Shown: positions 44,477 to 55,700 of the stretch, in pieces
Layout: every line of letters starts with the position of its first letter
Position numbering within the stretch: the first letter of the stretch is position 1
NCBI GenBank assembly: GCA_027490225.1
Contig: JAIXYK010000029.1
Coordinates: 1 to 59,107, forward strand
DNA: 59,107 nucleotides
Direction: 5' to 3'
Source of the DNA: Bacteroidota bacterium
Lineage (GTDB): Bacteria > Bacteroidota > Bacteroidia > M30B66
Made by a program: the position numbers and the translations under genes
The notes under the pieces: model-generated
Told to the model about the DNA's origin: nothing
Databases searched by the model: none
Seen by the model: only the letters and a program-made list of their open reading frames with translations

Positions 44477-46030
44477 ATGGACAAAATAAACATTCTTTGG
44501 GCCGACGATGAAATTGAATTACTGAAGCCACACATATTATTTTTAAGAGAAAAAGGGTACGATGTATCCACAGCAAATAGTGGCGATGATGCCTACGATT
44601 TAGTAAAAGAGCAAGATTTTGATATTGTATTTTTGGACGAGAACATGCCGGGAATCAGCGGACTGGAAACACTTTCAAGAATTAAACAATTAAAAAACGA
44701 CCTTCCAGTTGTTATGATTACCAAGTCTGAAGAAGAACACATCATGGAAGATGCTATTGGTTCTCAGATTTCAGATTACTTAATAAAACCAGTAAATCCT
44801 AACCAGATTTTACTGTCTTTGAAAAAGATTTTGGAAAACAAAAGGTTGATTCGCGAAAAAACTTCCAGTGCTTACCAGCAAGAATTCAGAAGTATTGGCA
44901 TGAGCATGAGCGATAGGTTGAGTTATGAGGAATGGTTGGAGGTATATCAGAAATTGGTTTTCTGGGAATTAGAATTGAGCAAAACCAAAGAAGAAGGCAT
45001 GGAAGAAATTCTTCGTATGCAGAAATCTGAAGCCAATGCATTGTTTTCTAAGTATGTAGCAAACAATTACCAAGGTTGGGTAAGCGGCAAAGACCCGAAA
45101 GCCCCAATCATGTCGCACTTGCTTTTTAAGCAACGCGTTATTCCTGAAATTGATAAAAATGAATCAACGTTTCTGATTTTAATTGATAACATGCGTTACG
45201 ACCAGTGGAAAGTAATGCAACCTATTATTACAGAATATTTTAAAGTTGATACAGAAGAGCTATACTGTTCAATATTACCTACAGCTACGCAATATGCCAG
45301 AAATGCATTTTTCGCTGGTTTGTTGCCGAGTGAAATCGAAAAACGCTACCCAAAACATTGGTTAAACGATGAGGACGAAGGCGGGAAAAACTTGTCTGAA
45401 GAATTTTTTATGCAAGAACAATTAAAGCGTTTGGGTAAAGATGTAAAGTCATCTTATACGAAGGTTACAAATTTTCAAGCAGGTAAGAAATTGGCCGAAA
45501 GTATCCCAAATTTAATGGGAAACAAGTTTAACGCTATCGTTTACAACTTTGTAGATATGCTTTCGCATGCCCGCACAGAAATGGAAGTAATACGCGAATT
45601 AGCCGACGATGAAAAAGCCTACCGTTCCATAACTGTTTCTTGGTTAGAGCATTCTCCCCTACTCGATATTATTAAGCAAATTGCCGAACGCAAAGGAAAA
45701 TTAATTTTGACCACCGACCATGGAACCATTCGCGTTACAGAACCAAGCAAAATTATTGGCGACAGAAATACCAATACCAATTTGCGCTACAAGCAAGGCA
45801 AAAATCTAAATTACGAAAAGCGAGATGTGTATGAGGTAAAAAATCCTGCAGACATATATATGCCGAAACAACATGTGAGTACCTCTTTTGTATTTGCCAA
45901 AGAAGACAAATTTTTTGCTTACCCTAACAACTACAATTACTTTGTAAATTATTACCGCAACACATTCCAACATGGCGGTATTTCCTTAGAAGAAATGTTG
46001 ATTCCCTACATTTCATTAAGTGTAAAGTAA
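44477..46030 (+). CDS. porX: PorX: type IX secretion response regulator with PglZ phosphatase domain
   Basis: 517 residues. Residues 1-120 are a receiver domain with phosphoacceptor D54 (FLDENMPG), acidic pair D10/D11 and K104 (YLIKPVNP). A helical linker follows. Residues about 200-517 are a PglZ/alkaline-phosphatase-like domain (ILIDNMRYDQWKVM, TTDHGTIRV, and YRNTFQHGGISLEEMLIP). PorX controls expression and function of type IX secretion in Bacteroidota, usually with the kinase PorY, not seen here. Two cargo-like proteins are in this window. A hairpin terminator follows. Confidence 0.95.
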   Translation: MDKINILWADDEIELLKPHILFLREKGYDVSTANSGDDAYDLVKEQDFDIVFLDENMPGISGLETLSRIKQLKNDLPVVMITKSEEEHIMEDAIGSQISDYLIKPVNPNQILLSLKKILENKRLIREKTSSAYQQEFRSIGMSMSDRLSYEEWLEVYQKLVFWELELSKTKEEGMEEILRMQKSEANALFSKYVANNYQGWVSGKDPKAPIMSHLLFKQRVIPEIDKNESTFLILIDNMRYDQWKVMQPIITEYFKVDTEELYCSILPTATQYARNAFFAGLLPSEIEKRYPKHWLNDEDEGGKNLSEEFFMQEQLKRLGKDVKSSYTKVTNFQAGKKLAESIPNLMGNKFNAIVYNFVDMLSHARTEMEVIRELADDEKAYRSITVSWLEHSPLLDIIKQIAERKGKLILTTDHGTIRVTEPSKIIGDRNTNTNLRYKQGKNLNYEKRDVYEVKNPADIYMPKQHVSTSFVFAKEDKFFAYPNNYNYFVNYYRNTFQHGGISLEEMLIPYISLSVK

Positions 46031-48023: not shown

Positions 48024-48110
48024 GGCTTCTAGAGCCTCAGCCACCGAGCTACAAGCTCAGCCTTATCCGCTGGCTGAGGCCCTCGAAGCCAACGGGGAAG
48101 GCTAACGAAG
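48024..48110. repeat. Large GC-rich inverted repeat after the type IX cargo gene
   Basis: Two 20-base arms (48024-48043 and 48071-48090) are inverted copies with two or three mismatches: GGCTTCTAGAGCCTCAGCCA and TGGCTGAGGCCCTCGAAGCC. Between them lies a second dyad GAGCT-3-AGCTC, and AGCCTT/AAGGCT flanks further out. It can fold into a strong branched hairpin just 4 bases past the stop codon, between two convergent genes. Confidence 0.7.
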
Positions 48111-48140: not shown

Positions 48141-49265
48141 CTAAACTTCCAAAAACTCTCTAAAATTCCCCTTGTGCACCAGCATAGGTTGTACACCATA
48201 AGTTCCTGTAAATGTTTTAGAAAACCTTATTGTGTTTGGTTGTTTCCACTTAAACTCAAACGCCGAGAGGTCAGTTCCTATTTCTTCAACCAAATCAATT
48301 TCTTGTTGTTGCTTGGTGCGCCAAAAAAACATTTGTGCTCTTTTTCCTTCGTAGGTATTGTATTTTAATCTTTCGCTCATCAAAAAGTTTTCCCATAAAA
48401 TACCAACATCATTTCTAAGTTCTAATGGCTTTAGGTTGCCTATTAATGCGTTTCGTATGCCGTTATCGTAAAAATAGAGTTTTTTAGATTTTTTAATTTC
48501 GTTTCTCAAATTCCTGCTAAAAGAACCAACTGGAAATATTACAAATGCTTTTTCGAGCAAGTCGATGTAGAAGCTTACCGTTTTGCTATCAATTTTTAGC
48601 AATGCGCTCAACTCATTGTAATTTACTTCGCTGCCTACTTGGTAAGCTATCGCTTGAAGCAGTTTGTTTAAAATCTCAGGTTTTCTGATGTTTCCATAAG
48701 CTAAAACATCTTTAAATAAATAACTATCTGTTAACTCCAGCAGCAGGCGTTCTTTAATTTCTTCCTGCATTATTATGTCTGGGTAAAAGCCAAACACCAA
48801 TCGCTTTTCTAATTCTTGCTGAGATTTTAGGTATCCCAAATTTATTTCTAGCTCTTTCCATGAAATTGGCCAAAGGTTAAAAGTAAATTTTCTGCCTGTA
48901 AGTGATTCACCAGTTTGCTGCGTTAACTCGAAAGCGGAAGAACCACTCAATATGAGTTGAACATCTTTAATGTTATCTACGATGAGTTTTGCGATTAATC
49001 CAATATCTGGTATTCTTTGCGCTTCGTCAATTACAACAATTTTATTTCCGCCTACTATTTGTTTTAGTTTCGATAATTCCGCACTGCTAAACATTTCTCT
49101 CACGAGGGCATCATCTGCATCGAGAAAAAGATGCTCTTTAGAATATAAATTAACAATTTCCTTTATGATTGTTGTTTTCCCAACTTGTCTGGGACCAATC
49201 ATAACTATGGCCTTCCCTAAAAATAAATAGGATTGTATCTGTTTAACAATCAATCTTGCTATCAT
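48141..49265 (-). CDS. AAA ATPase with DUF4143 C-terminal domain
   Basis: 374 residues. Walker A GPRQVGKTTIIKEI near residue 24, Walker B KIVVIDEAQRIPDIGLI near 75, sensor LILSGSSAFEL near 105, then a winged-helix-like region and the DUF4143 nuclease-like end (FWRTKQQQEIDLVEE and FEFKW, with the E-x-K-like pattern). Such ATPases are common, often variable between strains, and of unknown function. A 32-bp tandem repeat array lies 34 bases before its ATG. Confidence 0.9.
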   Translation of the reverse strand: MIARLIVKQIQSYLFLGKAIVMIGPRQVGKTTIIKEIVNLYSKEHLFLDADDALVREMFSSAELSKLKQIVGGNKIVVIDEAQRIPDIGLIAKLIVDNIKDVQLILSGSSAFELTQQTGESLTGRKFTFNLWPISWKELEINLGYLKSQQELEKRLVFGFYPDIIMQEEIKERLLLELTDSYLFKDVLAYGNIRKPEILNKLLQAIAYQVGSEVNYNELSALLKIDSKTVSFYIDLLEKAFVIFPVGSFSRNLRNEIKKSKKLYFYDNGIRNALIGNLKPLELRNDVGILWENFLMSERLKYNTYEGKRAQMFFWRTKQQQEIDLVEEIGTDLSAFEFKWKQPNTIRFSKTFTGTYGVQPMLVHKGNFREFLEV

Positions 49266-49299
49266 TTTGAATTTGATTTTTGTCGAACCTTAACACAAA

Positions 49300-49414
49300 G
49301 ATATAACTTTTACGGAACATAATCCCGAATAGTTATAACTTTTACGGAATATATTCCCGAATAGTTATATCTTTTGCGGAACATATTCCCGAATAGTTAT
49401 AACTTTTGCGGAAC
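49300..49414. repeat. 32-bp direct tandem repeat array upstream of the ATPase
   Basis: Three full 32-bp units (49300-49331, 49332-49363, 49364-49395) and a 19-base partial unit (49396-49414), with 2-4 changes between units. Each unit holds AGTTATAACT (palindromic in the inner copies) and a GGAAyATATTCC dyad, perfect in the second unit. No spacers separate the units, so it is not a CRISPR array. Its place in front of the ATPase start suggests an operator array or recombination site. Confidence 0.85.
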
Positions 49415-49583
49415 TCAAATATCAAGACAATGGGTTCTAAAAAAATTAGATGCACATGAAAAAATTGGATTTATGGGAAAGACGCTTTTAGAAAACAATT
49501 TCTACATTTATTTATAAGTTGATTAACAAACTTAATATGCATATAAACACAATTTAACAGAACTTTGCAGAAACTTCTAAAAA

Positions 49584-55491: not shown

Positions 55492-55525
55492 AGCTCCATT
55501 CAATCGCTGGTCCTTGGGTAAGGGG

Positions 55526-55672
55526 AAAGTATAAAGTTGAAAGTATAAAGTTGAAAGTATAAAGTTGAAAGTATAAAGTTGAAAGTATAAAGTTGAAAGG
55601 GGAAAGGATAAAGGGGAAAGGATAAAGGGGAAAGGGGAAAGGATAAAGTACAAAGTTGAAAGTAAAAAGGGG
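55526..55672 (+). repeat. AAAGnnn heptad array (21 copies)
   Basis: Five exact copies of the 14-mer AAAGTATAAAGTTG (55526-55595) are followed by 11 more heptads of the form AAAGGGG, AAAGGAT, AAAGTAC, AAAGTTG or AAAGTAA. All keep a strict 7-base period with AAAG. One strand is nearly all purine. It is non-coding; the frames open on the other strand here are low-complexity artefacts. The whole 365-base gap 55437-55801 consists of repeat elements. Confidence 0.92.
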
Positions 55673-55700
55673 AATGTTGGAATGGTAACTATTTAAAAAA

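Follow-up and report, generated by a model that had tools for sequence, protein, structure and literature searches.

A 32-bp repeat array before a Bacteroidota DUF4143 ATPase gene is probably an operator read by the ATPase itself

The controller (C) proteins of restriction-modification systems and the autorepressors of toxin-antitoxin systems belong to mobile genes that arrive with an operator and a regulator of their own and, once transferred, control themselves. Self-regulation by way of an operator is already known as a kind of control. These regulators are small dedicated DNA-binding proteins, whereas at the locus described here a putative effector, an ATPase-nuclease, would be its own regulator. 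Among proteins with a AAA+ core, those of the Orc1/Cdc6 group bind ordered origin boxes. A described promoter array of similar layout is that of RptR, which binds three direct repeats that have a palindromic core and so represses a defence-island promoter (PMC12255303). RptR is also a dedicated small regulator, in contrast to the AAA+ protein proposed as reader here.

The ATPase belongs to a group known as PDC-S01, an ATPase fused to the PD-(D/E)XK superfamily and listed as a candidate phage-defence gene. PDC-S01 is reported to be among the putative defence genes found most often in bacteria and archaea, ranking fourth among defences across prokaryotes, and most PDCs still await validation (PMC12988326). 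One AAA_14/DUF4143 gene, TT_P0211, is up 6.6-fold in plasmid-bearing Thermus thermophilus with Argonaute present (PMC4406477), which may be an indirect effect. In those parts of the PDC-S01 literature that were accessible, no mention of a DNA target, an operator array or autoregulation was found. An array or code is likewise unreported for DUF4143, COG1373 and PDC-S01 in the literature searched, which left out most subscription papers and preprints.

The gene lies in a contig of 59,107 nucleotides from a Bacteroidota bacterium (the window, meaning the whole stretch of DNA that was analysed). The original prediction, made from the letters alone, described three and a half near-identical 32-bp units before the ATPase start. 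These units are real: Tandem Repeats Finder places an array at 49302-49414 with period 32, 3.5 copies, 92% matches and a score of 191. Its parts and the adjoining promoter box are as follows.

49302-49414, minus strand: 32-bp tandem array of 3.5 units, reading towards the gene TTCCGCAAAAGTTATAACTATTCGGGAATATG
49384-49415, minus strand: unit 1 (distal), dyad axis 49399/49400, outward half-sites TAACTTTTGCGGAACT and TAACTATTCGGGAATA
49352-49383, minus strand: unit 2, dyad axis 49367/49368
49320-49351, minus strand: unit 3 (proximal), dyad axis 49335/49336, which precedes the start of the -7 box by 32 nt
49304-49319, minus strand: terminal half-unit, dyad axis 49303/49304, at the edge of the -7 box
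49296-49303, minus strand: candidate -7 promoter box TATCTTTG, which fits the Bacteroidota consensus TAnnTTTG

Three full copies on the minus strand match TTCCGNAAAAGTTATAACTATTCGGGAA with 0-1 mismatches, at a chance expectation in the window of 0.00. Read towards the gene, the array repeats TTCCGCAAAAGTTA, the main dyad axis and TAACTATTCGGGAA-TATG, and a second dyad lies 16 bp off. The two dyads per unit that had been predicted are thus present, with axes alternating every 16 bp. The gap between array and ATG had been given as 34 bases and measures 36. The repeat occurs nowhere else in the window, as predicted, and nowhere else in the 3.77-Mb genome. When that genome was searched for a 17-base core with up to two mismatches, three matches fell in the array and one elsewhere, the latter an isolated half-site; the reversed control pattern gave one match per strand in the same search.

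The -7 consensus of Bacteroidota is TAnnTTTG (PMC7366714; PMC9723704). The last half-unit reaches into the box at 49296-49303, and the array therefore overlaps the core promoter. The promoter was called by consensus only. An E. coli-type promoter scan was uninformative for this phylum. Its position bears on the idea that the repeats act as leader RNA hairpins and control the gene at the RNA level. The units are indeed palindromic, but their place is on the -7 box or upstream of it, so that they would precede the transcription start and go untranscribed from that promoter, and their conserved core is AT-rich. This explanation is scarcely credible.

Other repeats and genes were seen around the locus. 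An inverted repeat with 23-nt arms, 87% complementary, occupies 48024-48090 between the convergent ends of the ATPase gene and a gene for a Por secretion-tail protein. A 517-aa fusion of a response regulator with a PglZ domain is encoded near the ATPase gene at 44477-46030. A 14-bp minisatellite at 55520-55674 (GAAAGTATAAAGTT, 5.4 perfect copies followed by degenerate ones) lies between two gene ends.

The ATPase (P0001) and the parts of its gene referred to below are these.

48141-49265, minus strand: AAA_14/DUF4143 ATPase of 374 aa, assigned by Pfam and by PADLOC (PDC-S01)
49170-49196, minus strand: Walker A motif, residues 24-32 GPRQVGKTT, with G24, G29, K30 and T31 invariant or nearly so in the alignment
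48471-48680, minus strand: winged helix domain, residues about 196-265, from the AlphaFold model, with a fold like 2fna/2qen
48582-48590, minus strand: putative specificity residues 226-228 (D S K), where the predicted recognition helix (227-239) starts, covarying with half-site bases 12, 10 and 11
48141-48440, minus strand: C-terminal domain with the PD-(D/E)XK-like signature D324...E337-x-K339, from conserved residues and weak fold matches

Both Pfam matches exceed their gathering scores (AAA_14: 1.1e-27, 97 bits, cut-off 27; DUF4143: 1.3e-41, 142.4 bits, cut-off 28.1), and the PDC-S01 model PDLC04789 of PADLOC matches over 372 residues (E 1.2e-154, 512.9 bits). A sequence search of solved structures found no DUF4143 member, and a profile search matched other AAA+ and P-loop proteins. 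In the AlphaFold model (mean pLDDT 90) the top fold matches are the archaeal ATPases 2fna (SSO1545) and 2qen (PABY2304), with Z scores of 16.2 and 16.4 over ~250 residues, followed lower down by STAND proteins, clamp loaders and Orc1/Cdc6 (2qby). P0001 thus has the AAA+ core and winged helix of a STAND/Orc1-Cdc6-like fold. In 2fna and 2qen the AAA+ core is followed by a winged helix, as in P0001, and the best alignments end at about residue 276, before the C-terminal domain. The family of P0001 differs from the archaeal ATPases, STAND proteins and Orc1/Cdc6 in that its sites lie at its own promoter and its specificity residues are variable.

The catalytic signature of PD-(D/E)XK nucleases, D...(D/E)-x-K, is present in P0001. 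Its D, E and K are invariant in a 43-row alignment of the C-terminal domain; in a 62-row alignment D324 is invariant and E337 and K339 are conserved in at least 90%. When the C-terminal 99 residues were modelled alone, the matches were mostly PD-(D/E)XK nucleases (Can2, TnsA, Hjc, McrC), each of them weak, with no Foldseek E under 0.001 and VIA Z no higher than 7.1. A defence role is possible through the assignment to PDC-S01, but anti-phage activity is untested.

With up to three mismatches, the window motif was absent from 295 other genomes of the phylum. As its letters are not conserved there, the promoters of homologs were fetched and read (80 homologs at 50-57% identity and ten from the same order). 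The letters of the repeats differ widely among these promoters and the period is kept. Across 89 homologous upstream regions the mean self-match score reaches 14.4 at lag 32 and stays near 4.3 at the other lags from 14 to 60; in 152 control promoters from the same contigs it is 4.55 at lag 32. This contrast is if anything understated, because some of the controls belong to the same gene family. The lag is exactly 32 in 35 of the 38 homologous regions above threshold. An absence of repeats before orthologous genes would have refuted the original prediction; most homologs have 32-bp-period arrays or dyads, in different letters.

Tandem copies are not always found. Many homologs without them keep a single 32-bp palindrome, such as TAATGACCAATAGTTATAACTATTGGGCATTA in L096. 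Promoters carry from 1 to 5 units, and since 44 of 95 have only one, an array is not obligatory. Unit number also changes quickly, as two proteins 99.5% identical (L062 and L067) have four and three units, respectively. A strong dyad or tandem was detected in the 120-bp upstream regions of 73% of close homologs, 69% of distant ones and 73% of genes from plasmid or phage records (n=11), against 23% of controls (n=122). About a quarter of close homologs fall below both the dyad and the tandem threshold, and comparable dyads occur in 19% of control promoters. Five of the eight tandem-bearing control promoters belong to other AAA_14 genes, and those that were tested match PDC-S01 models. Looking blindly for such arrays thus leads back to the family.

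The register with the promoter is conserved as well. Of 82 promoter matches, 73 have their main dyad axis no more than 3 nt from the start of the -7 box, modulo 32, a range that covers 7 of 32 phases. The sites thus overlap the gene's own core promoter, as expected of an operator, with the promoters again called by consensus only. The motifs also appear to be private. In six further genomes, two other motif types searched with up to three mismatches matched at the cognate promoter only, as judged from locus coordinates; in two more the pattern used had no match. Repeats at random places away from the ATPase gene would have counted against the original prediction, and none were seen in the host's own genome or in the six others with a motif.

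The same searches bear on a reading in which the array is a transposon end or homing site, cleaved or mobilised by a nuclease-like ATPase. The weak resemblance of the C-terminal domain to PD-(D/E)XK nucleases including TnsA would suit such a role, as would the presence of the DUF4143 ATPase gene on many plasmids. However, the motif stands on one side of the gene only, while a transposon or integron end would be expected on both; no second copy of the repeat beyond the gene was found, which goes against the mobile-end reading raised in the original prediction. Exact patterns of two motif types were absent from a viral contig collection, and the conserved promoter register also counts against this reading. 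A cleavage or mobility site is highly unlikely.

Evidence on the identity of the reader comes from the variable letters. The half-site motif was found by expectation-maximisation (EM); it is 16 bp long, read outward from the axis, and runs approximately TAACTTTT[N][G][T][C/G]A[T/A]TA. Its core is conserved and bases 9-12 differ most between clades. Pairwise differences at the variable bases were compared with every protein column in 95 sequences, with whole-protein distance controlled. The best three columns of the whole protein are adjacent: 228 (partial r 0.50), 227 (0.48) and 226 (0.41), with 231 in seventh place. In the AlphaFold model residues 226-228 stand at the start of helix 227-239, which is predicted to be the recognition helix expected in a winged helix domain.

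The associations amount almost to a code. Sequences with D or E at 226 have G at base 12 in 45/45 cases, those without in 0/50. K228 goes with G at base 11 in 11/11, against 1/84 without it, and K227 with G at base 10 in 73/77, against 3/18. By MI-APC over all 16 x 374 base-residue pairs, (12,226), (11,228) and (10,227) rank 1, 2 and 5. Contacts of Lys with G are frequent in protein-DNA complexes, as are acidic residues that face the C paired with G. The window protein itself (D226 S227 K228) has half-sites with G12, G11 and a mixed base 10, as the code predicts.

Kinship was controlled with a tree built without residues 215-240, on which phylogenetically independent pairs were scored for each of 633 residue states. 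D226 ranks first for G12 (7/8 pairs concordant, 0 against) and K228 first for G11 (6/6), while K227 is second for G10 (5/7) behind residue 344; the 95th percentile of all residue states is 0.33. There is a caveat of circularity, as the training-set centres came from an EM motif that included the variable positions. With bases 9-12 masked in the motif, D226-G12 still holds in 45/45 and K228-G11 in 11/11, and K227-G10 holds in 71/77 versus 3/18.

A held-out set comprised 54 previously unused homologs, mostly 45-65% identical to the training set. For 226-G12, 228-G11 and 227-G10, accuracy was 0.91, 0.91 and 0.73 at confident sites (n=33; p 1e-6, 6e-5 and 0.013) and 0.85, 0.83 and 0.72 over all 54. 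The third of these rules is the weakest of the code. The exceptions are L238, L259, L250, L288 and the pair L268/L276, and some of them may be register errors. The last two have N226 H227 H228 and half-sites with TGGAAGTT; in the assumed register these depart from the code, and a shift by one base may be the reason.

Across about 150 relatives, then, the letters of the putative operator match three residues of the protein's own helix, on covariation alone. The code holds over independent pairs and mostly in held-out homologs, and from this it is inferred that the ATPase very probably recognises its array directly. The original prediction, that the array either serves self-control by binding or is targeted by the protein itself, is supported in that the letters covary with the protein's own predicted recognition helix.

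Paralogs were also examined. The host genome has five DUF4143 genes. One of them (L103, G000:C8, about 1-900) has a different, near-perfect period-33 array before its start, with four copies of ttaacccccaatctgtgacattaaaaccaaata; another (L100/L192, C4:932; G000:C4, about 1.5-2.8 kb) has another 32-bp array, built on acatttattcatttgaatttatgtt; and L102 has a 22-bp-type repeat. In 80 genomes of the phylum, more distant DUF4143 genes have dyads or arrays immediately ahead of the start codon, with a period of 32, 33 or 22. Such differences matter for the possibility that a different host regulator binds the array and the ATPase does not touch it. Dedicated regulators are usual at promoter arrays, as with RptR in its defence island (PMC12255303). 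Against this, the letters change with the recognition-helix residues of the gene product itself, in independent pairs and held-out sequences as well; paralogs in one genome carry different arrays; and the motif was not found elsewhere in the genomes searched (the host's own and six others). A separate host regulator is very doubtful, and direct reading by the ATPase remains the preferred explanation.

Within one genome the triplet 226-228 differs in 23 of 24 paralog pairs. Extra selection for orthogonality between paralogs was considered and rejected: 1/24 pairs share the triplet against 0.99 expected from equally divergent pairs, so there is no excess. As the differences are no commoner than in equally diverged pairs from other genomes, such selection is not shown.

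Further repeats and palindromes were seen in the wider family. A separate group of eight DUF4143 genes (L102, L130, L158, L159, L164, L166, L169, L292) has in common a class of short palindromes around TTGAGTAAATTTACTCAA, and in several of them the period is 22 bp; L291 from Collinsella has a 46-bp perfect palindrome with ACTCAGTATACTGAGT. Among 22 genes from plasmid or phage records, which span several bacterial phyla and one archaeon and include the 11 of the 120-bp comparison, 12 have a dyad that is significant by shuffling (p<0.05), and some of these dyads adjoin the ATG. Four DUF4143 genes of proteobacterial plasmids (L196, L197, L198, L202) have a common dyad close to CCTTGCA...TGCAAGG. 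Because it abuts the ATG, an effect on translation is also possible there.

Taken together, the array is probably a private operator of the ATPase gene, read by the winged helix of the ATPase and repressing that gene, although there are no binding or expression data. The support is comparative and computational (array architecture, promoter register, motif privacy and the residue-to-base code). In the proposed mechanism the recognition helix would read 16-bp half-sites through residues 226-228. The half-sites stand head to head every 16 bp, and the resulting 32-bp palindromic units keep register with the -7 box; the protein, once bound, would therefore stand in the way of RNA polymerase and keep expression of its own gene low. 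Additional units would increase affinity or cooperativity, and cooperative assembly on multi-unit arrays is inferred.

The sign of regulation is a separate inference. The ATPase could instead activate its own promoter from the array in a positive feedback, like STAND activators of the MalT type. STAND ATPases are among its fold relatives and some units do lie upstream of the promoter, but a dyad axis coincides with the -7 box, as does a half-site in the window, and protein bound there would block the polymerase. Activation is thus improbable without being negligible, and autorepression is the likely sign because the array sits over the promoter.

What would lift repression is a matter of conjecture. 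Given the PDC-S01 assignment, derepression by invading DNA or phage is a natural guess. A more elaborate and rather doubtful version is that the ATPases form an ordered, ATP-dependent sentinel complex on the array, and that a change triggered by an invader frees the promoter and arms the nuclease. If that were true, the family would be a large set of orthogonal, self-addressed switches spread by horizontal transfer.

The new element relative to known autoregulated systems is an effector ATPase-nuclease that acts as its own sequence-specific regulator with a readable code, where both binding and regulation are inferred. The DUF4143 family, barely covered in the literature searched, gains a specific DNA site and, at three base pairs, a residue predicted to read each of them. 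Naturally diversified operator-repressor pairs with a predictable code are on offer as well. The finding also suggests a way for a mobile and potentially harmful ATPase-nuclease to remain silent after reaching a new host, and for one genome to hold many paralogs.
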